From positions 1 to 64,000 of IMG/VR virus record IMGVR_UViG_3300021959_008125: a stretch of 64,000 nt of DNA; one strand, given 5' to 3'. The notes beneath the pieces are model-generated. The model had not been told where the DNA came from and searched no databases. It was given only the letters and a program-made list of their open reading frames with translations. This DNA comes from a virus. Shown one piece after another: positions 1,436 to 29,377 of this stretch (positions are counted from its first letter, which is position 1; the number at the start of each line of letters is the position of its first letter). The position numbers and the translations under genes were made by a program.

Positions 1436-4400
1436 ATGGCGATAGTACTACCTGGCGGCTTTAATATAACGAACAACGAACCAGCAGATGCAAGGTTTTC
1501 CGTTGCAGACTCTTCTGCTCGTTTAGGATTATCTGCCGCCAACGTATATGAAGGTTTATTAGTTTATCAACGTGATAACGATACTCTGTATGTACTGACT
1601 AATGCTAGTGATCCAAGCCAGGCAGGTAACTGGACTGAAGTAGGAGCTCAAGTTGATATTTCTTCACTTAATGCTTTTACTGGTTCGGCAGAGAGTAGAT
1701 TAGATGCTCTTGAATTAGAAACAGGATCTATTGCAACAGAACAGGCATTACAAGATGCTAGATTAGATGCAATTGAAGCAGCTACAGGTTCTTTAACAGA
1801 TTCCGGGATAACCGGCAGTAGTTTAGTAACGGCTTCTGCAACTGGTGATACGATTACGTTTACTAAAGGAGACGGTTCAACTTTCCCTATAACAATCTTT
1901 ACTTCCTCAAGTTTAGGACTAAATACTAAGGTAGGTTTTATACCAACTTCTTCATTCGTTGCTTACAGTCCCGGAGGTAGTACCCAGGCATCTGCTAGTG
2001 TTGAATTTGCAACACCTTTTAGTTCGTCAGATTACCAGGTAGTAGTTCATTACCCAAATGTGCTTGCTACTGGTTCAGTTTTTGACCGGTTAGTTACAGC
2101 TCCCATGATTGCTGTTGTAAATAAAACAACTACAGGATTTGGAGTATTAATAGACACATCTATATCAGTTCTAGCTAATGATAGATCCTTTGACAATGAT
2201 ATTAGTTACATAGCTGTAGCAAACGGAGAAACAGCAGTTACTTCATCTTTTACTTTATTATCTGCAACAGCTTCTTACGTCGAATATGATAATGTAGCAA
2301 ATAAACCGACTTTAGTTTCTTCTAGTGCTCAAGTTGCAAGCTTAACCGGTAGCTTAATTAGTACTGCATCTGCTACTGGGGATACGATAACCTTTACTAA
2401 AGGAGATGGTTCAACTTTTCCTATAACAATCTATACTTCCTCAAGTTTAGGATTAAATACTAAGGTTGGTAATGTGCCTTCTGCTTCTTTTCAAGCAACA
2501 GGTAGTGATAGTTATGCCTCAGTAACATTTGCAACCCCTTTTAGTTCATCAGATTACGGTGTATCTCTCCAACTTGCAAACGCTAATAAAGAGTTATATG
2601 CACAATTAGATGACTTTTCTATTGAAAATAAAACTACTTCTGGGTTTGATATTTGGGCAGATGCCACTATTACAAATTGGAGTAATATACCGGGTTCTAG
2701 TGTAGACTACATAGCGGTAGCAAATGGTGAAACAGCAGTTACTTCTTCATTCACTCTATTATCCGCCACTGCATCTTATGTTGAATATAACAATGTAGCT
2801 AATAAACCAACACTTGTATCATCTAGTAATCAAATAGCTGATATAACTGGAAGTTTAATAACTACTGCTTCTGCTACTGGGGATACAATTACTTTTACTA
2901 AAGGAGATGGTTCGACGTTTCCTATAACAGTATTTAGTTCTTCAAGTTTAGGTCTGAATACTAAGGTAGGTAATGTGCCTTCTGCTTCTTTTCAAGCTAC
3001 TGGGAGTAATGATAGTTTCTTTGACGTAACCTTTGCTACACCATTCAGTTCATCGAATTATAGTGTAGCTTTAACAAATAATGGGCTATTTGGAGATGTT
3101 TATGCTGAAAATAAAACTCCTACAGGATTTAGATTAGTCAGCACGTACACAACAGGAAGTTGGGGTCTTTATCCCGGTTCTAGTGTAGACTACATAGCGG
3201 TAGCAAATGGTGAAACAGCAGTTACTTCATCCTTTACTTTACTATCTGCAACTGCATCGTATGTTGAATATGATAACGTTGCTAATAAACCAACACTTGT
3301 ATCATCTAGTAATCAAATAGCAGATATTACCGGTAGTTTAATTAGTACTGCATCTGCAGCCGGAAGTACTATAACTTTCACAAAAGGAGATGCAAGTACA
3401 TTCGATGTAGTTATTACTACTGCTACAGCTGAGTCAGCCTCACATTTTGCTGAAGGTCTTGTAACAGCATCAAATGATTTCTCAGAAATTACTTTTACGA
3501 AAGATAACGGAGATACATTTACTTTAGATACCACAGGTAATCATATTCATGAACTTGTAAAGAATAAAGAATCTCAAACACTTGTAAAAGGAACACCAGT
3601 ATACGTTTCAGGCTCTACAGGAAATGCTAGCCATGTATATGCAGCATCAGCCTCCAGAGCCGATAGAATGCCTGCAGCATACGTACTAGATGAAGATCTA
3701 GCTTTTGACCAGGAAGGGTATGCTGTTCTTTCAGGATTCATAAATAATGTAAACACCTCTCAATTTGCAGCAGGAGATAGTGTTTATGTAGGAGCATCAG
3801 GAGGGTATACAAATGTAAAACCAACCGGTACAAACTTTATACAAAAATTAGGTAACGTAATTAAAGTAGATGCGGCAAACGGTTCTGGAGTAATCACAGG
3901 AGCCGGTCGTGCTAACGATGTACCTAATATACAAGAAAATTATTTATGGATTGGTAATGCCGACGGTGTAGCAACACCGGTATCAACAGGATCTTTATCC
4001 GGTTCATTTACGCTACTTTCAGACTTTATTGCTGCTTCTAGTTCATTTAGTACTAGGGTATCTACTTTAGAAACTAATGATACTCTACAAGATCTTAGAT
4101 TAGATGCATTAGAACTAGAAACAGGTTCGATCGCCAGTGAGCAGTCTACACAAGATAATAGACTACAAGCTCTAGAAACTAAAACAGGTTCATTAGAGAG
4201 TACTGATACTTTATATGACGGTAGACTAGATAGTTTAGAAACTGAAACTGGTTCTATATCTACCGAACAAACTTTACAAGATAGCAGATTACAGTCTTTA
4301 GAAACTAAGACAGGTTCTTTAGAAAGTACCGATACTTTATACGACGGTAGACTAGATGCTATCGAAGCAGCTACTAGCTCGTATGCTTTAGAAGCTAACA

Positions 4401-6379
4401 TTAGCGGAGCTTTTTCAGCACCAAGTTCTTCTTTTAGTACAAGAATTACAGATTTAGAAGGTGTAGATAATTTATACGACGGTAGACTAGATGCACTTGA
4501 ATTAGAAACAGGATCTATATCTACCGAACAAACTTTACAGGATAGTAGATTACAATCTTTAGAAACTAAATCTGGTTCGTTAGAGAGTACTGATACTCTA
4601 TACGACGGTAGGCTAGATGCTATCGAAGCAGCTACAAGTTCATACTTATTAAACACTACAGATACTCTAACAGGTACTTTAACTGTAACTAACGTTGTAG
4701 ATGCATCTTCAGTTACTATAGCCGATGAACTTAGACATAAAACAGATGAACATACTAAATTAGCATTTGCTAGTGATCAAATTCAATTATACACTTCAGG
4801 CAGCTCTAGAGTAAATGTTACTAATAATAGTGTAAGTAGTTTAGTTAACCTTAATGTTACCAACGATAGTAATCCAACTATTAATATACAGGATACTACT
4901 AATAATAATTACTTACAATTAAAAGCATTAGACAATGCTTCAAAAATAGAATTTACTAATAGCTTAATTTTTGAATCAGGTTCTAGTAATACTGAAATAG
5001 CGAGACTTAGTAACGAAGGACTAAACATGAATAGTTTTAAAATTATTCAAGTACAAGATCCAACTTTAGCACAAGATGCTGCTACTAAAGCATATGTAGA
5101 CAGTACTGTTAATGCAGCAACAGGAAGTGTAGATACACTAGCAGAAGTATTAGCAAATGGGAACACTACCGGAGGAACCAATATATCGGTTTCAGCTAAC
5201 GATGATATTAATTTTTCTTCCACTAGTGAAGCTATATTTAATAATAATCGACTTAGAATTTATGAATCAGGTACAGGAGCTTTTGTTATCCAGTCTGGTT
5301 CTGGAGCTTTAAATTTAAGAGCATCTTCTGTCATACTAGGAGGTTTTGGAGGAGGACCAATGCTACAAGCTACCGAAGGTGGAGCAGTAGTTCTTAGACA
5401 TAATGAAGTACTAAAACTTTCAACATCTACTACAGGTCTTACAGTTTCAGGTAGAATCTCTAGCCTTACAGACCCTACCGCTGCTCAAGATGCTGCTACT
5501 AAAGCATATGTAGATAGTACAGTTAACGGAGCAACAGGTTCTTTCTTACTCAATACTACAGATACGTTAACAGGAGATTTAACTGTAACCGGTAGAATCA
5601 CCGCAGAAGAATTTCATACAGAGTTTATATCTTCTTCAATTATATACAGAAGCGGTTCAACCAAATTTGGAGATACAGCAGATGATTCTCATGACTTTAC
5701 AGGTTCTCTTGCAATCGACGGATCTAGTTTATCAAGAAATATTTTAAAAGTTACAGGTACAACTACTAACCCACTAGCTAGATTTGAAAGTAGTACGAAT
5801 AGATCACATATAGAGTTTGACAACAACACAACCTCAGGTAGTATTGGTGTATTTGCTGCTACAATGTACTTTGATTTAGACCCTGCAGGATCTTTTGGGG
5901 GCCCTGGTGCAATGATATTTGCTATTTCAGGCAGTCAAAAAATGCGAATTGAAAAAACAGGTAATGTCGGTATAGGTACATTAACTCCTGGTGAACTTTT
6001 AACCGTAGGAGGCAATATATCCGGTAGCGGTAATTTAGTCATAGAAGGAAACATTACCGGTTCAGCAGGTCTATTCTCAGGAGATGTAGATGCAAACGAC
6101 TTTATTACAACTTCCGACCGTAGATTAAAAAGCGAAATTACTCCAATTAAAGAAGGATTAGAAACATTAAAACAATTTGTATCATACGAATATATTAAAT
6201 CAGATAGACAGGATGCAGGATTTATAGCCCAGGAAGTACAGCAGGCTATCCCTTATGCAATACAAAGTGGAAGCGGTGGTTATTTAACTATGAGAGATAG
6301 ACCTATCCTGGCACATATGCATAAAGCAATATTAGAGCTAAGTGAAAGATTAGAAGTAATAGAACAAAAAATTAAATAA
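1436..6379 (+). CDS. long tail fibre with C-terminal S74 intramolecular chaperone
   Basis: A 1647-residue fibre. Residues about 130-650 hold three long near-repeats, each opening with a GDTITFTKGDGSTFPIT segment and ending with ETAVTSSFTLLSATASYVEY. Residues about 870-1080 are a coiled-coil-like region with repeats of about 16 residues (YDGRLDALELETGS, DSRLQSLETKTGSLES). The phrase AQDAATKAYVDSTVN, common in phage fibres, occurs near residues 1211 and 1348. The C-terminal 89 residues are a peptidase S74 (endosialidase-type chaperone) domain starting TSDRRLKSEI. Ser1560 and Lys1565 have the five-residue spacing of the known Ser-Lys cleavage pair, so the domain should trimerise the fibre and then be released before Ser1560. 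Strong call for a trimeric fibre; the receptor is unknown. Confidence 0.9.
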   Translation: MAIVLPGGFNITNNEPADARFSVADSSARLGLSAANVYEGLLVYQRDNDTLYVLTNASDPSQAGNWTEVGAQVDISSLNAFTGSAESRLDALELETGSIATEQALQDARLDAIEAATGSLTDSGITGSSLVTASATGDTITFTKGDGSTFPITIFTSSSLGLNTKVGFIPTSSFVAYSPGGSTQASASVEFATPFSSSDYQVVVHYPNVLATGSVFDRLVTAPMIAVVNKTTTGFGVLIDTSISVLANDRSFDNDISYIAVANGETAVTSSFTLLSATASYVEYDNVANKPTLVSSSAQVASLTGSLISTASATGDTITFTKGDGSTFPITIYTSSSLGLNTKVGNVPSASFQATGSDSYASVTFATPFSSSDYGVSLQLANANKELYAQLDDFSIENKTTSGFDIWADATITNWSNIPGSSVDYIAVANGETAVTSSFTLLSATASYVEYNNVANKPTLVSSSNQIADITGSLITTASATGDTITFTKGDGSTFPITVFSSSSLGLNTKVGNVPSASFQATGSNDSFFDVTFATPFSSSNYSVALTNNGLFGDVYAENKTPTGFRLVSTYTTGSWGLYPGSSVDYIAVANGETAVTSSFTLLSATASYVEYDNVANKPTLVSSSNQIADITGSLISTASAAGSTITFTKGDASTFDVVITTATAESASHFAEGLVTASNDFSEITFTKDNGDTFTLDTTGNHIHELVKNKESQTLVKGTPVYVSGSTGNASHVYAASASRADRMPAAYVLDEDLAFDQEGYAVLSGFINNVNTSQFAAGDSVYVGASGGYTNVKPTGTNFIQKLGNVIKVDAANGSGVITGAGRANDVPNIQENYLWIGNADGVATPVSTGSLSGSFTLLSDFIAASSSFSTRVSTLETNDTLQDLRLDALELETGSIASEQSTQDNRLQALETKTGSLESTDTLYDGRLDSLETETGSISTEQTLQDSRLQSLETKTGSLESTDTLYDGRLDAIEAATSSYALEANISGAFSAPSSSFSTRITDLEGVDNLYDGRLDALELETGSISTEQTLQDSRLQSLETKSGSLESTDTLYDGRLDAIEAATSSYLLNTTDTLTGTLTVTNVVDASSVTIADELRHKTDEHTKLAFASDQIQLYTSGSSRVNVTNNSVSSLVNLNVTNDSNPTINIQDTTNNNYLQLKALDNASKIEFTNSLIFESGSSNTEIARLSNEGLNMNSFKIIQVQDPTLAQDAATKAYVDSTVNAATGSVDTLAEVLANGNTTGGTNISVSANDDINFSSTSEAIFNNNRLRIYESGTGAFVIQSGSGALNLRASSVILGGFGGGPMLQATEGGAVVLRHNEVLKLSTSTTGLTVSGRISSLTDPTAAQDAATKAYVDSTVNGATGSFLLNTTDTLTGDLTVTGRITAEEFHTEFISSSIIYRSGSTKFGDTADDSHDFTGSLAIDGSSLSRNILKVTGTTTNPLARFESSTNRSHIEFDNNTTSGSIGVFAATMYFDLDPAGSFGGPGAMIFAISGSQKMRIEKTGNVGIGTLTPGELLTVGGNISGSGNLVIEGNITGSAGLFSGDVDANDFITTSDRRLKSEITPIKEGLETLKQFVSYEYIKSDRQDAGFIAQEVQQAIPYAIQSGSGGYLTMRDRPILAHMHKAILELSERLEVIEQKIK
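1832..3365 (+). repeat. three imperfect direct repeats of roughly 0.5 kb inside the fibre gene
   Basis: Units begin near 1832, 2371 and 2873, and a degenerate fourth beginning appears near 3355. Each starts with a segment encoding ATGDTITFTKGDGSTFPIT and ends with one encoding NKPTLVSSS. The edges are almost identical at DNA level, while the centres (the probable exposed loops) differ. This pattern suits duplication followed by divergence or recombination of receptor-binding modules. Confidence 0.85.
4060..4660 (+). repeat. short tandem coiled-coil-coding repeats
   Basis: Repeated blocks of about 48 bases encode alternating DSRLQSLETKTGSLES and YDGRLDALELETGSIS phrases, giving a regular series of Leu/Ile positions as in trimeric fibre stalks. 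Several copies are nearly identical at DNA level, so the number of units could change by recombination. Confidence 0.75.
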
Positions 6380-7258: not shown

Positions 7259-10200
7259 ATGGCAACATTATTTTTTTCTAGTAGCAATTGGACAGATTTT
7301 ACTCCTTTTGGTTTAGACCAAGATAGTTATGGAGGGGATAACAAAAAGTTTAACAGATTAACAACTACTGTAGAGCTCCCTTCCACAGATCACAAAATAG
7401 TTAAAATAAGTATATCCCAAAGTGTATCTCCTGGTTATGATATAGGATATATTACTTTTACTTCCCCCGATGGTAGTGTTTTAAGTACATTAAATGAAAA
7501 TACCAGTGATAATTTATTTACTCCAGTAATAAGTGTAACCGCTGATGACCAAGCTTTATTTACTAATACTAGATGGTTTGAAACTAATTCGTATAATGGA
7601 GTTACTACTGATATACTTGTTAATGTAAACGGACCAGAAAGACTTAAAACTACTTTATTAAATTTACATATCGATATAGGAGCTAATTTAAATTACTCAA
7701 ATGCAAATGAAGAAGTAAATGTTATAATTGATTGTGACTATATTACTCCTGTTAAACATACAGCAGGTTTACACCCTTACTCTCCTTATGATGCTAAGGA
7801 CGGATCATCTACATACCAAACTAAAGTTTGGAGATTAGCTAGCTTAACCCCGGGTACATACTTATATTCTGATGCACTCATGACTAAACCAGCCTTACCG
7901 TATTATTACGGAATCGGCTCTACTGTTTATCAAGTAGGAGAAGAGTTAGATAGAAACTACGGTACTGTCTTAAAAGTCAAAGTAAAACCAAGATTATTTG
8001 CCCAACCTAAGACTGAATATAGATATACAGGCCCTACCAGCAATTGGTATCAAAAAGGAAAAAAAAGAAAAGAGCCTACAACAAAATTAATTAGAAGCGA
8101 ATGGCACGATGATTCATCTTATGATTATTCTCCGATGAATATTGAACCTTTTGTACCTAGTGTAGGAAAAATAAGCAGAACATACGCTAATGCTTCAATA
8201 CCTCAACCGTCAGTATATAGGTACTATGTTACCTCCGATACTACATCTGGTTATAAAGCTGCTGAGAAATGGAGATATTATGACTTAAGCGGGAAAAAAC
8301 ACTATATTATGAACGGTGGGTTTAACGCTTTATACCATCTAGGTCAAGCATATTCTAATAGTTTAACAAGTAGGCTTAATGACGGTAATTACGCAACTTT
8401 TATCGACGGTAATTTAATACAGATATTGATACAAGCTAGTAAATCTTCCGAACAGGTAACCAACGAAGGAGTGTTGATATTCAACAGTATTGTGCTTGCC
8501 ACGGAAATACCTGGTCTTATAGCAACAATCGCAGGAAAAAAAGCTGCAGGAGGTCTTCTAACTAACACAGTTTTTGCAGGTCTTAGCTCACCAGCTGGTA
8601 TTATAATTTCTGTTATAATACTTGTAGTAATTATTGTACTACTTTTAATTAGTATTTTTAAAAAAACTTGGTTAATTGAACCTCTTCCTTCTCTTAAAAA
8701 TGTATTTAGCTCTAGCCCTACTATATCAAATGGTGATAACTTTTATAAAAAAGATAATTTAGCCACAGAAATTGATACTGGAACTTACTACAGTAATGGT
8801 TTGGAGACTTTCCTATATTCTGGAACAGTTTCTGGTAAATCTTATTATTATGTTACAGGATTAGTTGGTTTTGATTATGAAGACGGTAACAAAAAAATAA
8901 TAAGAAGTGATGCCCCACTAGGATTAGGAATAGTATTTGATCAAGTATTTGACAGTACAGAAAATAACGCAGTGTGGGAAAGATTAATAACTTTACCTTA
9001 TGAAGCAGGAAAACCGGTACCGGGTAAGACAGTATCTGCAGCTACAGTATATACTAGCGCAGCTGCAAGTGCTAACGTAAGTTATAATGTAGGAGCGTTT
9101 GAAAGAGTACTTGTAAATTCAGTTGAACTGGAAGAGGGACTTTTAACTAGCTATGTATCACAAGCTGACGCTGACGCTAAAGCAACAATAATGCTATCTG
9201 CTTCTAGAGCTTACATAACTGGTTCTTCAACTCCAGGAGACTTAGAAAACGAATACGTAGTTAGCAGTAGTTTATTTTATTTTACACATACTATAAAGGT
9301 AGAAAACAATCCTAAGATTTTACCTTTATTTTGGACTGGGTCATTGACAGCAGGGACTGATTTATATTATGACGAAGGAGGTAGAAATAAGATATTAAAC
9401 GGATACTATTCAACCGGTAGCGCAGGTGCAAACTACAGAGACTTCTTTTTAGTAGAGAGCGGTAGTATATTAAAATCAGAAGTAATGGCCACAGCAGGTT
9501 CATCTAATACTGTTAGTGGACAACCGGTGGATACTTCTAATTTAGATTTTACTAGCGGGTGGGCTATAAGTGATGAAAGTAAATCGACTGTATATTCTAC
9601 AACTAATAGAGTAATTAATACTCATTTATATGACACAAGTAAACTCTTAGCTAATAATTTAGCTAAAAGAATAATAGTATCCGGTTCTAATAGAGTATCC
9701 GATAGTTCCACTATAAAAGTTTATGCAGGTACAGGTGTTAGCTCAACAGGAAGTTTTAATTCTCAAACTACTGGCTGGTACACAGATATTACTAGATGGG
9801 CACCCGGTCAGCAAAGAGAAGTACTACCAGAGTCGGTCTATTCACAGCCTACTAAAACTCTTACACCGTCTTTTAAAGAGGACTGTACCTGGCAAGAAAA
9901 TGCGAACGAAAGAGGAGTTTACGTCGAGTTCAGATCAGCTTCAGCATTTACAGCACCTCAAAACCCAGTAGACTTAGCTTTTGAAGTTAGGACTGCTACC
10001 GGAGCTGTAGGTACTTATAGAACAACAGTACCTGGGGATAAATCTAGACATTTTGTTCCGATAATTGATGGTAATTTTGAACCTAATCAATATTTTACAA
10101 GTATTACCTTAAGTAAAGTTTTTTCTCCTAATCCAAACAAAGGAGTAAGCATTTACACAGGCTCAGCTATTTTATCTTCTGTATGTTCTGCTCCTGCCGG

Positions 10201-10510
10201 AGGAAGTGAAACAGTATTTATATCACAAGTTAGATATAATTGTGATGATTTATGTTGGCAATCGGGAGATACTTCGTATCTTGTTAATAACAGTTCAGAT
10301 TCAACTGAAACGTATGCTAATATTACTGAAGGTACATACATCACAGATGTAGAAGGAAGTTTGAGCCAAGTGTTTGGATATATTGCTGTAGCAGCATCTT
10401 CAACACAAACTAGTGATACTAGTAATGTTAAAATATTAGAAGTAGATAACTTTGGATTTGTAACAACTATTATAAATTGTTCTGGTGGTGCATGTACAAA
10501 CCCATTATAA
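7259..10510 (+). CDS. very large structural/adhesin protein with one membrane-like segment
   Basis: A 1083-residue protein 3 bases after its neighbour. It is mostly beta-type sequence rich in Tyr, Ser and Thr, with a short basic patch near residue 268 (KGKKRKE). Unusually for a fibre protein it contains a 23-residue strongly hydrophobic stretch (about residues 447-469, starting GIIISVIILVV and ending IFKK), preceded by a Gly/Ala-rich helix-like region from about residue 420. The C-terminus carries three cysteine pairs and ends in a segment like that of the preceding protein. Context makes it a virion surface or tail-tip component. The hydrophobic segment could insert into a host membrane or bury in a trimer core. 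No family recognised. Confidence 0.55.
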   Translation: MATLFFSSSNWTDFTPFGLDQDSYGGDNKKFNRLTTTVELPSTDHKIVKISISQSVSPGYDIGYITFTSPDGSVLSTLNENTSDNLFTPVISVTADDQALFTNTRWFETNSYNGVTTDILVNVNGPERLKTTLLNLHIDIGANLNYSNANEEVNVIIDCDYITPVKHTAGLHPYSPYDAKDGSSTYQTKVWRLASLTPGTYLYSDALMTKPALPYYYGIGSTVYQVGEELDRNYGTVLKVKVKPRLFAQPKTEYRYTGPTSNWYQKGKKRKEPTTKLIRSEWHDDSSYDYSPMNIEPFVPSVGKISRTYANASIPQPSVYRYYVTSDTTSGYKAAEKWRYYDLSGKKHYIMNGGFNALYHLGQAYSNSLTSRLNDGNYATFIDGNLIQILIQASKSSEQVTNEGVLIFNSIVLATEIPGLIATIAGKKAAGGLLTNTVFAGLSSPAGIIISVIILVVIIVLLLISIFKKTWLIEPLPSLKNVFSSSPTISNGDNFYKKDNLATEIDTGTYYSNGLETFLYSGTVSGKSYYYVTGLVGFDYEDGNKKIIRSDAPLGLGIVFDQVFDSTENNAVWERLITLPYEAGKPVPGKTVSAATVYTSAAASANVSYNVGAFERVLVNSVELEEGLLTSYVSQADADAKATIMLSASRAYITGSSTPGDLENEYVVSSSLFYFTHTIKVENNPKILPLFWTGSLTAGTDLYYDEGGRNKILNGYYSTGSAGANYRDFFLVESGSILKSEVMATAGSSNTVSGQPVDTSNLDFTSGWAISDESKSTVYSTTNRVINTHLYDTSKLLANNLAKRIIVSGSNRVSDSSTIKVYAGTGVSSTGSFNSQTTGWYTDITRWAPGQQREVLPESVYSQPTKTLTPSFKEDCTWQENANERGVYVEFRSASAFTAPQNPVDLAFEVRTATGAVGTYRTTVPGDKSRHFVPIIDGNFEPNQYFTSITLSKVFSPNPNKGVSIYTGSAILSSVCSAPAGGSETVFISQVRYNCDDLCWQSGDTSYLVNNSSDSTETYANITEGTYITDVEGSLSQVFGYIAVAASSTQTSDTSNVKILEVDNFGFVTTIINCSGGACTNPL

Positions 10511-12650: not shown

Positions 12651-13520
12651 TTGAATACAGTTTGGGTTTTAGAGAATATTAAGGGAAACCTTAATTCAAA
12701 AGATAATTATGCTAATAGTAAGTTAAACATACTACTACTCCTTGCATCAGTTTACTTATGGAAAAAAAACCATAGACAGGATAAATGTATTTTATATGCT
12801 GATGATTTAACTATAGATATACTATTAAAATTAAAAGTTTTAGACTTTTGGGATTCTATACGTCCTATGCCTACAACAAGGAGAATAGATAAAGAAGTAT
12901 TTTGGGCTTCACCTAAATTGGAAGTTTTAGCACAGCTAGACGAACCAGCTATTCTAATGGATAATGATACCCACGTCTACATCCCTTTGAGAGACTTTTT
13001 AAATAAAGATACTCTATATGTAATGCATTACGAGAACGGAGGTGGATATTATCCTAGTAGTGTGGATAAATACGTAAAACAGTTGACTTTTAAAAGAAGG
13101 TGGGAAACTGATTCTGTAAATGTAGGGTTCTTACACTTACCTGATCCAACTTTTACAAAGAAGTATGCAAATCAGAGTCTAGACATTATGGAAGAATTTA
13201 CCAAAATGGGAGTAAAAAACTCTCTTTATCTTATTTTCAGTGAACAGCTTTTACTAAAGACAATGTTAGAAGAAGAAAAAATAAAATATAAACCACTACT
13301 TTCTACTTACTACAACTGTAGAGAATGGGAATGGGGGGATGATCATCAAGAAGGTATATGGACATTTAAAGATTCGGGTGAATTTGTTAAACATTACGGA
13401 CCTTTGAAAAGAGATATAAAAGATAATAAAGGAAATCTAAATTACGAAAGTGAAATATCGCATTTACTTAATTGTATTAGACTCCCACATTTAGATTTAA
13501 GCATAATACCAGGAAGATAA
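12651..13520 (+). CDS. GT-A-like putative glycosyltransferase (DUF6734-like)
   Basis: A 289-residue protein. The frame begins at a TTG two bases after the previous stop; no in-frame ATG lies close enough to keep the conserved-looking N-terminus. Residues 101-110 (ILMDNDTHVY) place an Asp-x-Asp at 104-106 after a hydrophobic strand, as in nucleotide-sugar-binding GT-A folds. The overall shape resembles DUF6734, a glycosyltransferase-like family. It is the first gene of the glycan cassette and abuts a methyltransferase with a one-base overlap. Donor and acceptor are unknown. Confidence 0.5.
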   Translation: MNTVWVLENIKGNLNSKDNYANSKLNILLLLASVYLWKKNHRQDKCILYADDLTIDILLKLKVLDFWDSIRPMPTTRRIDKEVFWASPKLEVLAQLDEPAILMDNDTHVYIPLRDFLNKDTLYVMHYENGGGYYPSSVDKYVKQLTFKRRWETDSVNVGFLHLPDPTFTKKYANQSLDIMEEFTKMGVKNSLYLIFSEQLLLKTMLEEEKIKYKPLLSTYYNCREWEWGDDHQEGIWTFKDSGEFVKHYGPLKRDIKDNKGNLNYESEISHLLNCIRLPHLDLSIIPGR

Positions 13521-14281
13521 TGGGATTATTAGATAAAGAATTTATTAGACAATTTTTAACCAACAACCCTGAAAAAGTTAAAGATGCTGACGGTAAGATA
13601 AATACAGTTTTTAAATCCGTACCTTATAGATGGACTCACGGAGCTACCGACTTTCATTTAGGGGATGGGCTACTTATGTACGCTATTATACAGTTGATGA
13701 GGTATAAGAGTCTAGTATGTTTAGGATCCGGTGGAGGATTTATTCCTCGTATAATGACACAAGCAAGACTTGATCTACACGATCAAGAAATCTTTTCTGG
13801 TGATAAAGACTATAATCACGGTGATATAGGTGTAACATACCTTGTCGATGCAGCTAACGGTGTAGGAGGTAATATAGATTATTTAGAAAAAGATTCTTTC
13901 TTTAGATACCAATTTGCACCAAGATTCATAAAAGAAACAACTGAAAAAGCTTTCTACGATTTTTTCGTAAAACAAGATATTAAGATTGACTTTCTACATA
14001 TAGATGCAGGACATTCTTACGAAGACGTTAAAAGAGACTTTGAACTATATTCGACACTACTATCAGATTATGGAATGATATCAATTCACGATACTGATAA
14101 AAGATACCAAAAAGAATTTATAGTAACGGAAGATGAAAAAGAATACTTCCAAGAATGGGATGGACCAACAAAATTTATACAAGAAATAGGACCTGAATGG
14201 AAACAGTTTAATTTTTTTAATACCGGTATTCATCCTATGAAACCAGCCTCAACAGGATTAACATTATTACAGCGTGCCTAA
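13520..14281 (+). CDS. class I SAM-dependent methyltransferase (Methyltransf_24-like)
   Basis: A 253-residue protein. Residues 66-73 (VCLGSGGG) form the SAM-binding glycine loop after a hydrophobic strand. HIDAGHSYEDV near residue 160 and SIHDTD near 190 match the acid-loop and strand 5 pattern of Methyltransf_24 and cephalosporin-hydroxylase-like sugar methyltransferases. A likely role is O-methylation of a sugar or amino sugar in the glycan made by this cassette. It overlaps the downstream glycosyltransferase by 8 bases. The fold call is good; the substrate is inferred from context only. Confidence 0.65.
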   Translation: MGLLDKEFIRQFLTNNPEKVKDADGKINTVFKSVPYRWTHGATDFHLGDGLLMYAIIQLMRYKSLVCLGSGGGFIPRIMTQARLDLHDQEIFSGDKDYNHGDIGVTYLVDAANGVGGNIDYLEKDSFFRYQFAPRFIKETTEKAFYDFFVKQDIKIDFLHIDAGHSYEDVKRDFELYSTLLSDYGMISIHDTDKRYQKEFIVTEDEKEYFQEWDGPTKFIQEIGPEWKQFNFFNTGIHPMKPASTGLTLLQRA

Positions 14282-15104
14282 TTTAGTAACAGTAGTCGGA
14301 GAAAATACGCACATCTTACCTCATATGTTAAAGCATTATGAAGATAAGGTTGATAAGATGTTTGTTGTAGTGTATCGTCAAAAAGATGATGATAAGATAT
14401 TAGAACAAGTTGAAGAGTTAGGTATTACTCCTTTTTGGGTAGTAACAGAACCTAAATATAAGTGGGATAGAGTTACAGATATCTACAATACTATAAAACT
14501 TAGACATCCAAATGAATGGTGGATAGTATCGGACGATGATGAACTTCAATTATATCCGTATGATATAGAAGATATTATAAAGCACTGTGAAAATAAAGGT
14601 TATGACTTTGTAACAGGTGGGTTCTTAGATAGAATAGGCCCTAATGGTACTTTCCCGGAAGTTACTAGAGAGACGGATTTACACAAAGCCTTCCCTTACG
14701 GAGGATTTTTTAGATATCCGATGTCTGGTGCTTGCCCAAATAAAGTGACTTTAATGAAAGGTTATCAATCTATTACTTCTGGACAGCATTATGCTAAATT
14801 TACTGATGGGACTAATAGCTGGGGTACTTCACATCCTAAAAGAATGCCTGTACAAGACTGCTTTACACAAGTACACCACTTTAAATGGGATTCAACTTGT
14901 GTGGATAGAATCAAAAAAGTAGCAGATGTAAAAAAGAAATACGCCTACTCAGAGGAATATGAAAAAATGTATCATGCTATCAAAATGTTTGATTTTAAAA
15001 TTGATATCAATAATCCTGAATTTATGTTTGAGAAATTGCAAAATTTTTCTTATATTGAGTATATAAAATGGAATAAATTAACAGATTTAATAATTAAAGT
15101 ATGA
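14274..15104 (+). CDS. family 2-like glycosyltransferase
   Basis: A 276-residue protein starting with GTG inside the previous gene. It follows the Glyco_tranf_2_4 pattern: an N-terminal Rossmann half (VTVVGENTHILPHML), the conserved YNTIKLRHP helix, and WWIVSDDDEL at residues 82-91, where the Asp triplet would bind metal and nucleotide sugar. The remainder holds HHFKWDS, compatible with a catalytic or metal-binding His. It ends overlapping the next small gene by 4 bases. The acceptor may be a sugar chain on fibre proteins or the host envelope. Confidence 0.65.
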   Translation: MPNLVTVVGENTHILPHMLKHYEDKVDKMFVVVYRQKDDDKILEQVEELGITPFWVVTEPKYKWDRVTDIYNTIKLRHPNEWWIVSDDDELQLYPYDIEDIIKHCENKGYDFVTGGFLDRIGPNGTFPEVTRETDLHKAFPYGGFFRYPMSGACPNKVTLMKGYQSITSGQHYAKFTDGTNSWGTSHPKRMPVQDCFTQVHHFKWDSTCVDRIKKVADVKKKYAYSEEYEKMYHAIKMFDFKIDINNPEFMFEKLQNFSYIEYIKWNKLTDLIIKV

Positions 15105-15301
15105 GCAAAGTTAGTGAATCAAAAGTAGATTCGTTATTGTTAGAAGAGCGAAAAGTAGTAGCTCTTGAAAAAATTGCAACAACATTAGATGCCCTTACTG
15201 TTTGGTTTGAAGAAATCGACAAAGATGAGTGGAGTGAAAGACTTCAATGGTATCTTGCTTTATGGAAAGAAAAGTATATTGGTGACGATGTAGATGTATA
15301 A
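15101..15301 (+). CDS. small acidic helical protein, unknown
   Basis: A 66-residue protein whose ATG overlaps the previous stop (ATGA) and whose end overlaps the next gene by 8 bases. It is strongly acidic and helical, with two Trp-containing amphipathic stretches (ALTVWFEEI and LQWYLALWKEKY). The spacing argues for a real, translationally coupled gene. No family recognised. It could be a subunit of the adjacent glycosyltransferases, but nothing shows this directly. Confidence 0.5.
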   Translation: MSKVSESKVDSLLLEERKVVALEKIATTLDALTVWFEEIDKDEWSERLQWYLALWKEKYIGDDVDV

Positions 15302-16706
15302 ACTTGGAGTTATAGTTCCCTACCGTAATAGGGAAAAACAACTACCTGTTTTTATAGATTCAATATCCAAATATCTTCAAGAGCAAGACATACAGTTTGA
15401 GATAATAATTGTCGAGCAAGCTGATGACCTAGACTTTAATAGAGCAAAGCTATTAAATATTGGGTTTTTAAAAGCAGAAAAGCTTGGGTGTGATTATGTC
15501 GTATTTCACGATGTAGACATGATACCTCTACAAGCCGACTATTCTTATTCTAATAAACCTCAACATCTTATCACAGACTTTGATTTACCAGACGGTATTT
15601 CTAGAACTTTATTTGATGAATATTTTGGTGGAGTAACTTTATTTAATACTAAAACATTCAAACGTATTAACGGTTACTCAAATAAGTATTACGGTTGGGG
15701 GTTCGAAGATGATGATCTCTTTCTTAGATGTCAAGAGAATTATGTTAAACTATCAGAGAAAAAATATATTAATAAAACAAAAGACGGATTATCTTTAGAA
15801 TTTAACGGACAGAACAGTTTTGTTACCTGTCCTAATTTTTTTAAACCAGGTAAATCCTATAGTATTTTTCTGACGTTCGAAATTATACCATTCTTATTAG
15901 ACCCAGACAAAGCCTATGATGAGTACAGTATATTTTCTATAGCCGGGTATGATATAGCTCTTAATGTAAATTCTTTTAGAGATATACTATTTCAATTCTG
16001 GAAATCAGATTATAGTTCTATAAGTATAACAAGTAAGGATAAGTATCATCCTTGTTCTCTCAATGTATGTATTGTTATAAATGAAGATTCAAGACCTAAT
16101 AGAGTAGATTTTTATATTAACGGAGAACTACAGGGAGTTAACACTTATGATACATTATTAGATATTTCTTTAAATAAGTACTTCTACTTAGGTGTTGGAG
16201 ATCCAAATAGAGATCTAGTCAATAACTACTTTAAAGGAAATATAGATAGTTTTTGTGTTGTGTCTCAAGCACTAGACTCTAAGCAGATTAAGATAATCTC
16301 GGAAGATAAACATAATAACTACTTTAAACACATTAATCAGAGGTACTTAGAGTGTTACTATGATAGCAAATTTATATCTGATAAAAAGCTTATAGATTTA
16401 AGTAAACATAAAAGACATGGTGTTATTTTTAATTGTAAGCAAATCGAAGTAGCTAGAGACAATGAAGTTTCTATTCCTATTCCAAATAGAAGAAAAGGAC
16501 TATTCAAAGTTTTAGAGCATCAAGAAAACGGATATAAAGACGGGTATTGGGTAAATTGGAACACTAGAGATCACCAGATACAGTACTTTAAACAGTATTT
16601 AGAACAGCGTACCAATTATAGAATAGACGGTTTAACTACTCTAGAATACAAAACAATCTCTGATAGGGATCTAGGTATGTATAGACATTTAAAAGTAGAG
16701 TTATGA
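15294..16706 (+). CDS. GT7-family galactosyltransferase-like enzyme with an inserted LamG domain
   Basis: A 470-residue protein. The N-terminal half is a beta-1,4-galactosyltransferase-type (GT7) domain: VPYRNR (8-13), HDVDMIP with the metal-binding Asp-Val-Asp (73-75), and GWGFEDDDLFLRC (134-146), the GWGxEDDD catalytic motif. The rest of the GT7 fold appears only at residues about 399-470 (GLFKVLEHQ, then IDGLTTLEYK, then YRHLKVEL). In between lies a LamG/concanavalin-like domain (about 165-345) with FYINGELQG and a terminal FKGNIDSF strand. The LamG domain therefore interrupts the GT7 domain. A 465-residue paralogue follows with a 4-base overlap. Likely a sugar transferase with a built-in carbohydrate-binding domain. 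Confidence 0.8.
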   Translation: MYKLGVIVPYRNREKQLPVFIDSISKYLQEQDIQFEIIIVEQADDLDFNRAKLLNIGFLKAEKLGCDYVVFHDVDMIPLQADYSYSNKPQHLITDFDLPDGISRTLFDEYFGGVTLFNTKTFKRINGYSNKYYGWGFEDDDLFLRCQENYVKLSEKKYINKTKDGLSLEFNGQNSFVTCPNFFKPGKSYSIFLTFEIIPFLLDPDKAYDEYSIFSIAGYDIALNVNSFRDILFQFWKSDYSSISITSKDKYHPCSLNVCIVINEDSRPNRVDFYINGELQGVNTYDTLLDISLNKYFYLGVGDPNRDLVNNYFKGNIDSFCVVSQALDSKQIKIISEDKHNNYFKHINQRYLECYYDSKFISDKKLIDLSKHKRHGVIFNCKQIEVARDNEVSIPIPNRRKGLFKVLEHQENGYKDGYWVNWNTRDHQIQYFKQYLEQRTNYRIDGLTTLEYKTISDRDLGMYRHLKVEL

Positions 16707-18100
16707 AATTAGGAGTATGTGTTCCATATAGAAATAGAGCAGCTCATTTAAAAGAGTTTATTCCTAGAGTTGGTAAACATCTTGAGGAACAAGGTATTCA
16801 TTACCATATATACTTTGCTCATCAAGTTGATGATAAACTTTTCAATAGAGGAGCTACTAAAAATATTGCTGCTAAACACGCCTTCGAAGACGGATGTGAC
16901 TACATTGTATGGCATGATATTGATATGATACCAGAAGAAGGCGTAGATTACTCATACCCAGATAAATATCCTATACATCTTGCAACTAGAATATCTCAAA
17001 TGGGATATAGATTAAAGTACCATGAATATTTTGGTGGTGCAGTACTATTCAATAAAGAACACGTAGAAAAAACTAATGGCTACTCAAATGACTATTGGGA
17101 TTGGGGTATGGAAGATGATGATTTATTTTGGAGATGTCATCTTGAAGGATTAACAAATGATACTTACTTACCATATAAAGATAAGGCTAAAGCATATATC
17201 GGTTTTAACGGTAAAGACTCTTGGGCGCAAACTCCTAAGTCTAGAGATTTATTAAAATTTACTTCAAAGACTCATACTATAACAGCACTAGTCAGACCTT
17301 ATCAGCAACCTCAGAAAGTTGATGAGTACCTTATTGGTGGTAAGAATAAAAGATATGTAGAATATCCTATAGTTAGAATGCCCGGTTATGATTACGGTTT
17401 TGCTTTTAATAACTCTAGAGCTTTAACTTTACAGTTTTGGAATAAAGAAAATCAACACAACTACATGTGGTTAAAAAGATACTCAGGACAATGGAGTTAT
17501 ATTACTGCAGTTATAAACCAAGAAACTAAAAAAGCTCATTTTTATTTAAACGGTAGTCAAGTAGATACCAGAGCTGGGCAAGGAAGTCCTTCCCCTCTTA
17601 AGTTTAAAGGAGATCTTAAAAAGTATTTTAACAGTAGTCTATTTCTAGGAACTACGCCTTCTTTACCTGAAGAAGATCCCGGTAAGTACTTTAAAGGAGA
17701 TATAGCAGATGTAGCAGTTTGGGACAGAGCATTATCTGATGAAGAAATTAAAAACTTACATATTGAAAAACCTAACGATAATCTTGTTTATGATTTAAAT
17801 ATTTCGTATCTTAAGATGAAGAACTGTGACCTTAAGACAGAAGTAATTAAGGTACCTAATTCTATTATTCCACATAGAAAGTTAGGTAGGTTTGAATGTC
17901 TACCTCATAAAGATGAAGGATTAGTAAACGGTAAATGGGCAAAAGGAGAAACAACAGCACGTAATGAACGAAGATACGTATTAGAAATGCAAAAAGGTAG
18001 TTGGGATTATAAAAATGACGGTATTAAACAGTTAGAATATAAATTAGTAGATAAGATAAATATTACTCCTAAAGCTACTATGATTAACATAGAACTATGA
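16703..18100 (+). CDS. second GT7/LamG glycosyltransferase, tandem paralogue
   Basis: A 465-residue protein, paralogous to the gene before it. GT7 motifs are VPYRNR (7-12), WHDIDMIP with Asp72-x-Asp74, and DWGMEDDDLFWRC (133-145). The interposed LamG-like domain spans about 165-350 (SWAQTPKSRD, FYLNGSQVD, KGDIADVAVWDRALS, the last typical of LamG C-terminal strands). The GT7 C-terminal part resumes near 390 (KLGRFECLPH, then NDGIKQLEYKL, then TMINIEL). Sequence divergence between the tandem copies suggests different donors or acceptors rather than a recent duplication. It overlaps its neighbours by 4 bases on both sides. Confidence 0.8.
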   Translation: MKLGVCVPYRNRAAHLKEFIPRVGKHLEEQGIHYHIYFAHQVDDKLFNRGATKNIAAKHAFEDGCDYIVWHDIDMIPEEGVDYSYPDKYPIHLATRISQMGYRLKYHEYFGGAVLFNKEHVEKTNGYSNDYWDWGMEDDDLFWRCHLEGLTNDTYLPYKDKAKAYIGFNGKDSWAQTPKSRDLLKFTSKTHTITALVRPYQQPQKVDEYLIGGKNKRYVEYPIVRMPGYDYGFAFNNSRALTLQFWNKENQHNYMWLKRYSGQWSYITAVINQETKKAHFYLNGSQVDTRAGQGSPSPLKFKGDLKKYFNSSLFLGTTPSLPEEDPGKYFKGDIADVAVWDRALSDEEIKNLHIEKPNDNLVYDLNISYLKMKNCDLKTEVIKVPNSIIPHRKLGRFECLPHKDEGLVNGKWAKGETTARNERRYVLEMQKGSWDYKNDGIKQLEYKLVDKINITPKATMINIEL

Positions 18101-19518
18101 AAGAAGATAAAGAAATAAAATTTGATAACCCAGATTACGCTTATACTAAAGGTAAGTTAGATTCGATAAGTTCATGTATGTGTTTAGCTAAATGGACTCA
18201 GTCTACTATACATTTACAGATGGGTAGAACGCATTCATGTCACCACCCTTCTACTCACAAAATACCTCTATCTGAACTGACTAGAAATCCTTCTGCATTA
18301 CATAATACAAGATTTAAAAAGCAGAGAAGAAAAGAAATGATAGATGGAGTAAGACCTAAAGAATGTGATTTCTGCTGGAATGTTGAAGATAATTCACAGC
18401 AATATTCTGATAGAGTTTTTAAATCTAATGAAAGCTGGTCAAGACCTTATTTTGAAGAAATAAAAAATTTAGGTTGGAGAGGAGATTATAATCCTAAGTA
18501 TGTAGAAGTAGCATTCTCTAATGCATGTAACTTTAAATGTTCTTACTGTGGACCTTCTTTTTCTTCTACTTGGGTTCAAGAGGCTAAAAAATTCGGTCCA
18601 TACCCAACTGATGACAGCTTCAATGATTTAGAGTATTTAAAGTCAACCGGTCAAATGCCGATACATCATACAGAACATAACCCTTATGTCGAAGCATTTT
18701 GGAAATGGTGGCCGGATTTATATAGAGATTTACATACTTTTAGAATTACTGGTGGTGAACCTCTTTTATCTAAAGACACATGGAAAATTTTAGATTTTAT
18801 TTTAGAACAAAAAGATCCTAATAATAACCTAAACTTAGCTATTAACTCTAATTTAGGAATACCAGACGACTTAGTAGATAAACTAATAGATAAGATTCAA
18901 AGAATTACCGAAGAAGACAGAGTACGAGAATTTATTATATTTACATCTGTGGAAGCTTGGGGAGAACAAGCTGAATATATTAGAAACGGATTAGAATTTA
19001 ACAGATTTTGGGATAATTTAAATAAAATATTAACTAAATGCCCTAGAGTTACTGTAACAGTAATGTCTACTTTCAATGCATTATCAGTACCTTCTTATAA
19101 AAAACTAGCTCAAGGTATATATGGCCTTAAAAAAGAATACGCTTCCACAGATAGGTACTGGGTATCTGCTGTATTTTTAGATTCTTCTTACTTGAGACAC
19201 CCGTCTCATCAAACATTACAAATATTAGAAGATAAATGGCACCCAGTGTTATTAGATACCTGTCAGTACATAGACTTTTTAGGGATACCTAAATTCGATA
19301 ATAGGCTAGTAGGATTCTCAGATGTTGAAGTTCAAAAAATTAAACGTTCTTATGATTGGATGATATCTAAATTTAAAGATCCTGAAAAAATTATGAAACA
19401 GAGATCTAATTTTGGTAGATATTTTAGAGCGCATGATGAAAGGAGAGGAACAGATTTTTGTAAAACATTCCCTGAACTTGCTGATTTTTATAATCAATGT
19501 CTAACTATAAGATATTAA
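18097..19518 (+). CDS. radical SAM protein (twitch-domain type)
   Basis: A 473-residue protein with CNFKCSYC at about residues 144-151, the CxxxCxxC motif for the [4Fe-4S]-SAM cluster, followed by TGGEPLLS near 222, the conserved GGEP loop. An N-terminal Cys-rich section (SSCMCLAK, CDFCWNVED) resembles the entry region of twitch-domain radical SAM proteins found in marine T4-like phages. The substrate is unknown. Its place within glycan genes suggests modification of a sugar or of a fibre protein. It overlaps the upstream gene by 4 bases and ends 1 base before the next. Confidence 0.7.
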   Translation: MKEDKEIKFDNPDYAYTKGKLDSISSCMCLAKWTQSTIHLQMGRTHSCHHPSTHKIPLSELTRNPSALHNTRFKKQRRKEMIDGVRPKECDFCWNVEDNSQQYSDRVFKSNESWSRPYFEEIKNLGWRGDYNPKYVEVAFSNACNFKCSYCGPSFSSTWVQEAKKFGPYPTDDSFNDLEYLKSTGQMPIHHTEHNPYVEAFWKWWPDLYRDLHTFRITGGEPLLSKDTWKILDFILEQKDPNNNLNLAINSNLGIPDDLVDKLIDKIQRITEEDRVREFIIFTSVEAWGEQAEYIRNGLEFNRFWDNLNKILTKCPRVTVTVMSTFNALSVPSYKKLAQGIYGLKKEYASTDRYWVSAVFLDSSYLRHPSHQTLQILEDKWHPVLLDTCQYIDFLGIPKFDNRLVGFSDVEVQKIKRSYDWMISKFKDPEKIMKQRSNFGRYFRAHDERRGTDFCKTFPELADFYNQCLTIRY

Positions 19519-19519
19519 T

Positions 19520-20275
19520 ATGAAAATAGATAAAAATAATACTTTTTTATTTCACAATGTGGATAGACATGGTTTAATTTTTAATCATGTTAGAGATATG
19601 ATTGTAGGGGAATTTACACTTTTGATAGAGTTTAAACCTGATATTGAACACATTAGAGAAAAACTTAACACAGAACCTAACTACCAGCAATGTATAGTCG
19701 GTAAAAACGGTAAACACACAGGACTTTTTATATGTGCTTATGATATAGATGGGGAACCTCATTTAAATTTAGAGTACCAATGGTGGCAAAATCCATTATG
19801 GGAGCAAAATCAAAACCCTGAAGAAGACGAATTTAAAAATGTTATAGTGCCAATTAAAGTAGATGTCGACAGCACTTATAGAGTTATTGTTCAAAAGACT
19901 AAAAAAGAAATATCTGTTGAATGTAATTTAAATAAAAAATCATTAGAGTTTGACAGTATTATTGATTATTCTAACTCGCTTATGTGGTTAGGAGCAGCGA
20001 ACAGGTTAAACGACACACCAGACATTGAAGACCCCTATAATAACATTTTTACAGGAGAGATATTAAAAATGCATCTTCAAGAAAAATCAATAGAGCACGA
20101 ACATATAAAATTATTTTTTGATGATTATAATAAATTTTTAGATTTAAAATTAGATGTTAAAAAAAATAAAGTATTTTTTACTTCTGACTTTAGTAACATT
20201 ACTCCGTATAAGATTTTAGATCAATCAGGAAATGGTAATCACCCTATAATTTTTAGATTAGAATGGCTGCTGTAA
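19520..20275 (+). CDS. stand-alone LamG/concanavalin-like domain protein
   Basis: A 251-residue protein lacking enzyme motifs. It has the strand pattern of LamG/jelly-roll lectin domains (FTLLIEFKPDI, then YRVIVQKTKKEI, then LMWLGAANRLND, then IFTGEILKMHL), ending with a DQSGNGNHPI phrase common in phage LamG proteins. It resembles the inserts in the two upstream GT7 genes more than their catalytic parts. It may bind the glycan made here or be displayed on the virion. It overlaps the next gene by 13 bases. Confidence 0.55.
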   Translation: MKIDKNNTFLFHNVDRHGLIFNHVRDMIVGEFTLLIEFKPDIEHIREKLNTEPNYQQCIVGKNGKHTGLFICAYDIDGEPHLNLEYQWWQNPLWEQNQNPEEDEFKNVIVPIKVDVDSTYRVIVQKTKKEISVECNLNKKSLEFDSIIDYSNSLMWLGAANRLNDTPDIEDPYNNIFTGEILKMHLQEKSIEHEHIKLFFDDYNKFLDLKLDVKKNKVFFTSDFSNITPYKILDQSGNGNHPIIFRLEWLL

Positions 20276-21132
20276 GTTTTAATACTTTATACTGTAACGG
20301 GGATAGTTGGACAGCAGGTGATATTGTTGACCCAGAGCTATTTGGGGACAATTTAGCTAAAGTTAATGATCCTCTAAACAAACCTTACAGGCTACCTAGA
20401 GTGTGGCCTCATAAATTAGCAAAAAAGTTAGGAGTAGAATGTATTAATAATGCCCATGCTGGAGCGTCTAACGATAGAATAGTTCGTTCTACTATAAATG
20501 ATGTGACTGAGCTACTTAATACAAAAAAACCAGAAGAAATATTCGCAATTATAGGATGGTCTTCTCCTGAAAGAAAAGATTTTTATTATAAAGCAGATAA
20601 AAACAATTCTGAATATTGGTTCTGTGTTTATCCTGCTGAATTTAGACACTGGAATGATGATAATAAAGATTTAAATGACTTTTTTAAGCTGTATATTAAT
20701 AGGTTTTGGAACAAAGAAGAGTATCTATCTAGACATTGCTTAAATGTTTTATCTTTACACCATTTTTTAAAAAGTAAAAACATTAAACATTTTTTCTTCG
20801 ATTGCTTTTATGAAGATAAAGAAGGAGTAATAGACGAAAATACCCACCAGCTTTATGAACAACCTTCTCTTCAGAATAATTTGAAAGCTTTCTATACTAA
20901 TACCCCTAAAAAAAAGTTAGAGAGACTAGACATACAGCATTCTTTACAAGAGGTAGTAGAGTTATATAAAAAACTTTATCCTAATGAAACTTTTTTAGAG
21001 TACATAAGAGAGTTAGAAAAAAATAAATTTAAACCTTTTGAATTAGTAGACTACCATCCTACAGAATTTGGACATGATTTTTGGTCTAACTATTTATATA
21101 ATTTTTTAAAATGCTCAAAACAGTTAATTTAA
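20263..21132 (+). CDS. SGNH/GDSL-like hydrolase
   Basis: A 289-residue protein. YCNGDSWTAG (10-19) supplies the block I GDS serine (Ser15). NAHAGASNDRI near 66-76 supplies the Gly/Asn of blocks II-III, and DYHPTEFGH near the C-terminus supplies the His region of block V. Family members hydrolyse esters, often acetyl groups on polysaccharides, or carry out acetyl transfer. A de-O-acetylase or acyl-modifying role on the glycan is plausible. There is no signal peptide, so it acts in the cytoplasm or after lysis. The motif spacing is slightly unusual for block V, which lowers confidence. Confidence 0.6.
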   Translation: MAAVSFNTLYCNGDSWTAGDIVDPELFGDNLAKVNDPLNKPYRLPRVWPHKLAKKLGVECINNAHAGASNDRIVRSTINDVTELLNTKKPEEIFAIIGWSSPERKDFYYKADKNNSEYWFCVYPAEFRHWNDDNKDLNDFFKLYINRFWNKEEYLSRHCLNVLSLHHFLKSKNIKHFFFDCFYEDKEGVIDENTHQLYEQPSLQNNLKAFYTNTPKKKLERLDIQHSLQEVVELYKKLYPNETFLEYIRELEKNKFKPFELVDYHPTEFGHDFWSNYLYNFLKCSKQLI

Positions 21133-27606: not shown

Positions 27607-27607
27607 A

Positions 27608-29094: not shown

Positions 29095-29377
29095 TATAGA
29101 CAATACAATTTGTAAAGAGGAGGGACCTGTTATAGATAGAAGACCATACCTAGATAGAATAGAAAAAATTAATCAACTCTATGATGACGGTCATATTATT
29201 ATATTCTATACAGCAAGAGGAAATAAAAGCGGAAGAGGGGAAGCATATTATAGACCGATAACTGAAGCTCAATTAGAGAATTGGGGGTGTAAGTATCACC
29301 ATTTATTCTTTAAGCCTTTTGATGGTGATATATTTATAGATGATAGGAGTATTCATCCAAATGAATTTTTCAAGTAA
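29078..29377 (+). CDS. small HAD-superfamily phosphatase
   Basis: A 99-residue protein with YIIDIDNTI (Asp6 nucleophile, Asp8 acid/base), FYTARGNKS (motif II) and GDIFIDDRS (motif IV Asp pair). The size fits capsule-biosynthesis HAD phosphatases found beside sugar nucleotidyltransferases. It may remove phosphate from a sugar-phosphate precursor. It overlaps the NeuA-like gene by 17 bases, and its stop overlaps the next start as TAATG. Confidence 0.7.
   Translation: MKYIIDIDNTICKEEGPVIDRRPYLDRIEKINQLYDDGHIIIFYTARGNKSGRGEAYYRPITEAQLENWGCKYHHLFFKPFDGDIFIDDRSIHPNEFFK

Follow-up and report, generated by a model that had tools for sequence, protein, structure and literature searches.

Genes A and B and Their Motifs

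The window, i.e., the whole 64,000-nucleotide stretch of DNA analyzed here, comes from a virus record of 85,865 bases (IMGVR_UViG_3300021959_008125), which belongs to an uncultivated marine tailed phage. It harbors two tandem genes, in the following called gene A and gene B, whereby gene A overlaps gene B by 4 nt and gene B overlaps the subsequent radical SAM gene by another 4 nt. The two genes and their segments are:

15294-16706, + strand: gene A, 470 aa, GT7 enzyme with a LamG/ConA-like insert
15294..15767, + strand: gene A, GT7 N-terminal half, residues 1-158, with PYRNR, FNR, HDVD (DxD), and GWGFEDDD (xED); Pfam GT7N/7C
15768..16481, + strand: gene A, LamG/ConA-like insert with linker strands, residues about 159-396; Laminin_G_3 2e-8, site and size alike in all relatives
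16482..16703, + strand: gene A, GT7 C-terminal block, residues 397-470, with C-His H409 (16518-16520) and DGLTTLEYK; hhalign to the C-terminus of uninserted bacterial GT7s 97-98%
16703-18100, + strand: gene B, 465 aa, GT7 enzyme with a LamG/ConA-like insert
16703..17167, + strand: gene B, GT7 N-terminal half, residues 1-155, with PYRNR, FNR, HDID, and DWGMEDDD; Pfam, Foldseek
17168..17866, + strand: gene B, LamG/ConA-like insert, residues about 156-388; Laminin_G_3 3e-17, homologous to the A insert
17867..18097, + strand: gene B, GT7 C-terminal block, residues 389-465, with C-His H402 (17906-17908) and DGIKQLEYK; hhalign 87.6%, 3.5e-6

By profile, both gene products belong to GT7. The Pfam models Glyco_transf_7N and Glyco_transf_7C (cut-offs of 27 and 23 bits) were matched by A at residues 2-85 (5e-23; 81.6 bits) and 108-155 (2e-16; 60.1 bits), and by B at residues 2-80 (1e-16; 61.2 bits) and 92-152 (5e-19; 68.2 bits), respectively. 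Laminin_G_3 (cut-off 27.6 bits) was matched at residues 213-333 of A (2e-8; 35.1 bits) and 169-350 of B (3e-17; 63.7 bits). Phmmer aligned the N-terminal half of A with B4GalT1 (8e-29) and that of B with B4GalT7 (2e-28). The motif order in A is PYRNR (residue 9), FNR (48), HDVD (72), GWGFEDDD (134), LamG, FKVLEH (His409), and DGLTTLEYK (445), and in B it is PYRNR (8), FNR (47), HDID (71), DWGMEDDD (133), LamG, FECLPH (His402), and DGIKQLEYK (439). The GT7 catalytic motifs DxD, xED (GWGxEDDD), and C-His are thus all present in both proteins, with DWG replacing GWG in B. Pfam matches, motif positions, and the C-block profile match (see below) confirmed the original prediction that in both genes the GT7 motifs are followed by LamG and only then by the GT7 C-terminal block. 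A hydrophobic stretch was found in neither A nor B, and therefore both are probably cytoplasmic. Overall, these features suggest that A and B are paralogous, soluble GT7-type inverting glycosyltransferases, which are probably active.

The LamG-Like Domain Lies Within the GT7 Catalytic Domain

In A and B alike, the insert comprises about 235 residues; it follows the xED/Trp-loop motif and precedes the C-His block, with which the active-site lid starts. It interrupts the contiguous domain of about 220-270 aa that GT7 enzymes otherwise have. We take contiguity to be typical of GT7 but not defining, so that A and B are an insertion variant still within the family. A joint alignment with uninserted bacterial GT7s (Simkania, Flavobacteriales, Gammaproteobacteria, and others) placed the extra domain of both proteins at one point, namely between the helix that follows GWG/DWGxEDDD and the strand containing R.G.F..L.H. 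In a comparison drawn from 311 distinct GT7 ORFs collected, only 1-11 residues occupy this point in 22 uninserted ORFs, compared to a median of 249 residues (range 213-295) in 263 ORFs with LamG. The inserts of A and B are homologous to each other (hhalign 99.8%, 9e-30).

Several comparisons address the sequence on the far side of the insert. The Pfam 7C match ends early, at profile position 64 (A) and 62 (B) of 78, compared to positions 77-78 in uninserted viral GT7s. When the A profile was compared with B4GalT1 from the PDB, it matched at positions 3-154 and then, weakly but in order, at 436-471, whereby about 28 residues of B4GalT1 stand against about 280 of the phage profile between the two matches. 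The C-block profiles aligned with the C-terminus of uninserted bacterial GT7s, with an hhalign probability of 97.2% for A (E 3e-11) and 87.6% for B (3.5e-6). Furthermore, the histidine in F..L.H is invariant in 57/57 relatives of A and 47/47 relatives of B. A C-His has been described for GT-A enzymes (PMC7185993), and for B4GalT1 His343, the lid, the Trp loop, and the metal ligands have been described (PMC6198961). The phage histidine is equivalent by alignment to the GT-A C-His and by position to His343, and it is predicted to be a C-His of the metal-ligand type.

All of these relatives (57/57 and 47/47) match the GT7N and GT7C models, and Laminin_G_3 is matched by 56 of the A and all 47 of the B relatives. 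Omega values from 49 independent close pairs are about 0.05 for the N-terminal half, 0.09 for LamG, and 0.08 for the C block; these low values mean that all three segments are constrained by strong purifying selection. In line A, LamG is less conserved than the N-terminal half (32% vs. 57%), which fits a changing specificity but equally a relaxed or structural role. Overall, the proposal from the first reading that LamG is nested inside the GT7 catalytic domain and not appended to it is well supported: A and B align with uninserted GT7s, the C-His behind the insert does not vary, the C block evolves under purifying selection, and the structure model is confident. The sequence comparisons also indicate that the predicted active-site residues are contributed from both sides of the insert.

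Predicted Structures of A and B

AlphaFold2 models were obtained for gene A from 57 sequences (pLDDT 93.7, pTM 0.89) and for gene B from 47 sequences (pLDDT 86.3, pTM 0.77). The lowest-confidence stretch of B (residues 405-414) and a dip in A (residues 411-420) both lie directly after the C-His. In B4GalT1 the flexible lid comprises residues 338-365 (PMC6198961), and in the models the two stretches coincide with the place of this lid. With Foldseek, the N-terminal half of A matched B4GalT1 and B4GalT7 with 33-38% identity over about 156 columns, and the inserts matched pentraxins and the Bacteroides carbohydrate-binding protein 4dqa, which assigns them to the ConA-like fold. Among the top BFVD matches of A are giant-virus GT7 proteins. 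A full-length match was found neither for A and B in the PDB nor for A in BFVD (TMq <=0.40); the N-terminal half and LamG were matched separately, without the insert being bridged. Homology and the confidence scores together suggest that the two GT7 halves pack together.

The Gene Pair Is Part of a Conserved Cassette

Genes A and B are flanked by further genes that recur in related viral loci:

12651..13520, + strand: DUF6734 protein, a frequent upstream neighbor (Pfam 7e-12; homologue in 59/172 loci)
13520..14281, + strand: Methyltransf_24-like methyltransferase (Pfam 1.5e-10; homologue in 133/172 loci)
14274..15104, + strand: GT2-like glycosyltransferase (Pfam Glyco_tranf_2_4 4.5e-5, below the cut-off; homologue in 148/172 loci)
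18097..19518, + strand: twitch-domain radical SAM protein (NF033640 2.9e-100; homologue in 148/172 loci)
19520..20275, + strand: free-standing LamG-like protein, an optional cassette member (hhalign to the A insert 99.3%, 9.6e-21; homologue in 41/172 loci)

Among 172 viral loci, for which some contigs were caught twice, homologues of the methyltransferase were present in 133, of the GT2 in 148, of A in 169, of B in 157, and of the radical SAM protein in 148, in most cases in this order. A and B are separated by <=60 bp in 120/149 pairs, 84 of which show a 4-nt overlap. The finding thus extends further than the original prediction stated, as A and B are members of a larger conserved cassette and are widespread in viral metagenomes. 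The radical SAM protein reaches 336 bits with NF033640 (cut-off 170) and is a member of the twitch radical SAM family. The protein encoded at 19520-20275, which had been predicted to be a free-standing LamG protein, gave no Pfam match of its own; its profile match to the A insert and the Laminin_G_3 matches of 7/25 members of its family substantiate this assignment. It is followed by a DUF6071/SGNH-hydrolase-like protein (20263-21132), which is present in 15 related loci. In two other loci (L141:121-2598 and L136:137-2602), ORFs of about 820 aa, whose C-terminal part is a radical SAM domain, are located upstream of the GT7-LamG genes.

The cassette sits among virion genes, with a tail-fibre gene upstream and a tail sheath gene downstream. 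The upstream gene is:

1436..6379, + strand: tail-fibre gene with endosialidase-type chaperone (Peptidase_S74) (Pfam 1.3e-10; PHROG long tail fibre 3.7e-12; homologue in 40/172 loci)

Its product is a candidate acceptor for glycosylation. In other loci the large upstream gene often encodes a tail-fibre or virion protein, and several loci have other or unrecognized upstream genes; the tail-fibre adjacency of the cassette is a correlation only. The tail sheath shares 63% identity with its counterpart in Flavobacterium phage immuto, an isolate from the Baltic Sea, for which no such cluster is annotated beside the tail sheath. Adjoining the fibre genes, a 1083-aa protein (7259-10510) has a strongly hydrophobic stretch near residue 448 and no family match. 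Downstream of the cassette, the window contains a short UDP-glucose/GDP-mannose dehydrogenase (24549-25319; 256 aa) with N-terminal and central domains only, as well as genes for a sulfotransferase, a cytidylyltransferase, an NTP transferase, a radical SAM/SPASM protein, an aminotransferase, a 2-hydroxyacid dehydrogenase, and NeuB of the sialic-acid-synthase family (26166-36171). The latter group suggests that a pathway for a nonulosonic-acid-type sugar is encoded between the genes for the tail fibre and the tail sheath.

Distribution and Origin of the GT7-LamG Architecture

The GT7-LamG architecture was identified in at least 263 distinct ORFs, 257 on IMG/VR contigs and 6 on contigs of metagenome-assembled genomes (MAGs). 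Scans of IMG/VR yielded 14 (query A), 224 (query B), and 397 (alignment of uninserted bacterial GT7s) confirmed loci, whereby the best 80 per scan were kept, so that the counts are no census. Among the matches listed for the scan seeded without insert, 100 distinct viral ORFs had LamG and C block, 9 had LamG and an unrecognized C block, and 7 were uninserted. No tblastn match was obtained in 50,697 deposited phage records (from which near-identical records were possibly left out) with A, B, a divergent A, an uninserted viral GT7, or the radical SAM, GT2, and methyltransferase proteins. In GTDB genomes, 15 GT7 ORFs lacked the insert and the 6 inserted ORFs were confined to three MAG contigs (L097, L098, and L099), which are assigned to Flavobacteriales and Pelagibacterales and carry a phage-like cassette. 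Bacterial ownership of these contigs was rejected because nearly every gene matches viral loci, and they are probably mis-binned viral contigs; among chromosomal bacterial GT7s of the GTDB genomes scanned, no inserted GT7 was found. The original prediction had considered that the architecture might prove widespread and already described. It is indeed widespread in uncultivated phages, but a description of GT7-LamG was not found in the literature searched, and the architecture, in contrast to the enzyme family itself, is apparently undescribed so far.

In a GT7-only tree (131 rows), the insert is explained by one change (SH-aLRT 93). In a more careful tree (63 rows) it needs two changes, whereby a single clade is not rejected (p-AU 0.347). 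The GT7 tree and the LamG tree both resolve A, B, and a third line as separate. A third tandem GT7 line (L089:1968-3425 and L096:1884-3338) has an insert of about 260 aa with a weak LamG match at the same insertion site. The simplest and best-fitting, though not proven, account is a single insertion with subsequent duplications, and there may have been a second gain or a loss of the insert. Independent insertion in A and B is not favored because their inserts are homologous and occupy an identical site, even though the 63-row tree needs two changes. As judged by sequence, the architecture is old, conserved, and under purifying selection. In addition, two viral ORFs (L145:5212-6699 and L150:5221-6705) were observed in which a GT2-like domain is fused to a GT7 domain that lacks the insert.

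Proposed Function and Alternative Explanations

In B4GalT1, the donor is covered by the closing lid, which moves in concert with the Trp loop, and the acceptor site is thereby completed (PMC6198961). Since the insert lies between Trp loop and lid, a binding domain at this position would be well placed to present the acceptor. Insertions into the GT-A core generally set acceptor specificity (PMC7185993), and the lectin domain of GalNAc-T2 is a precedent for lectin-assisted acceptor use (PMC4432651). We infer that A and B are active, with the C block packing back onto the N-terminal half and LamG looped out beside the lid hinge. LamG would hold the acceptor, i.e., a glycan already placed on a virion protein or the surface of that protein, and the tethered enzymes would efficiently add successive hexose-type sugars. 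The cassette that A and B make up with the GT2, the methyltransferase, and the twitch radical SAM protein would act in the cytoplasm to decorate a virion protein, with the tail fibre as the most likely target. As a whole, this is our best explanation, which we put forward with moderate confidence.

It might also be that A and B are real split GT7s whose LamG is no sugar binder but a protein-protein module for dimerization or virion docking, such that A and B form a complex via their inserts. The LamG/ConA-like fold serves protein-protein contacts too, and in nearly all cases A and B are direct neighbors, which often overlap by 4 nt. Moreover, the insert fold also matches pentraxins, which oligomerize, and GT7 enzymes such as B4GalT1 dimerize (PMC6198961). 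However, the Laminin_G_3 domains that phages have in tail fibres and elsewhere in the virion are considered to be lectins (PMC7824862), and the variability of LamG in line A is less expected of an obligate interface. We therefore hold a protein-protein role to be possible but rather unlikely. Somewhat less likely still is that the cassette acts not on the virion but on the surface polysaccharide of the host, which it would alter to bring about superinfection exclusion or to mask receptors. Cyanophage glycosyltransferase clusters have been interpreted in this way (PMC7824862), and NeuB and cytidylyltransferase types occur among the downstream sugar genes, but the location of the cassette among virion genes and the lack of a strongly hydrophobic, membrane-like stretch in the cassette proteins argue for the virion as target.

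We consider it very improbable that the split is illusory, i.e., that a minimal catalytic domain is already complete ahead of LamG, with the tail as an extension unrelated to it. Pfam indeed leaves the C block unmarked as GT7, and matches of the B4GalT1 C-terminus to the phage profiles are weak alone, but the alignment of the C block with uninserted GT7 C-termini, by profile and jointly, its invariant C-His, and its purifying selection speak against this. Glycosylation of modified bases in phage DNA is the least probable explanation, since, although virus glycosyltransferases can hypermodify DNA according to work cited within PMC12619734, no base-hydroxylating or thymidylate-synthase-like gene was recognized among the genes searched beside the cassette, and GT7 together with LamG points to sugar acceptors.

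With regard to the LamG-tethered acceptor that we prefer, nothing was found that favors processive or branch-specific transfer, both of which had been suggested initially, over simple substrate tethering. A more far-reaching and improbable variant is a lectin-in-lid polymerase, in which each lid-hinged LamG would recognize the sugar added by the partner, so that A and B would alternately build a defined tail-fibre glycan in a large group of uncultivated marine phages. If true, this would be a glycosyltransferase architecture and working mode not described so far. Apart from this, the predicted architecture means that a GT-A catalytic core accepted a whole lectin-type domain beside its mobile lid and kept it through duplication and strong selection, and the compact, soluble enzyme makes lectin-guided glycosylation testable. 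Attention is also drawn to a glycan cassette of a methyltransferase, a GT2, two GT7-LamG enzymes, and a twitch radical SAM protein, which is widespread but unstudied and in uncultivated phages frequently adjoins tail-fibre genes. Should the fibre be what the cassette modifies, these phages would commonly carry sugars on their receptor-binding proteins.

Comparison With Known Glycosyltransferase Systems

A and B share PYRNR, FNR, DxD, GWGxEDDD, C-His, and the DGL block with the GT7 beta-1,4-galactosyltransferases (B4GalT1, B4GalT7, and giant-virus GT7s), whereas the matched enzymes of this type are without LamG and the animal forms are Golgi membrane proteins. Transfer in the GT7 family is inverting and brings Gal, GalNAc, or Glc from a UDP-sugar into a beta-1,4 linkage. 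The polypeptide GalNAc-transferases (GT27) likewise combine an enzyme of GT-A fold with a lectin domain, which aids in the use of glycopeptide acceptors (PMC4432651), and GT27 is a neighbor of GT7 in clade 5 (PMC7185993). However, A and B do not have the GalNAc-transferase arrangement of a C-terminal lectin after an uninterrupted catalytic domain, as they are GT7 enzymes in which the lectin-like domain lies internally. In GalNAc-transferases the lectin sits on a flexible linker and is not nested, the lectin fold is different, and the mechanism is retaining. In lactose synthase (B4GalT1 with alpha-lactalbumin), an accessory protein on a GT7 enzyme changes acceptor use (PMC6198961). There, unlike in A and B, the accessory part is a separate, unrelated polypeptide. 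GtfA/GtfB of serine-rich-repeat adhesins are also two homologous cytoplasmic enzymes with inserted beta domains and an adhesin as target, but they have a GT-B fold and their domains are unrelated. In the hypervariable regions HV1-HV3 of GT-A enzymes, core insertions tend to set acceptor specificity (PMC7185993). Compared to these, the phage insert, located between xED and C-His, apparently lies outside the three HV segments and constitutes a whole folded domain.
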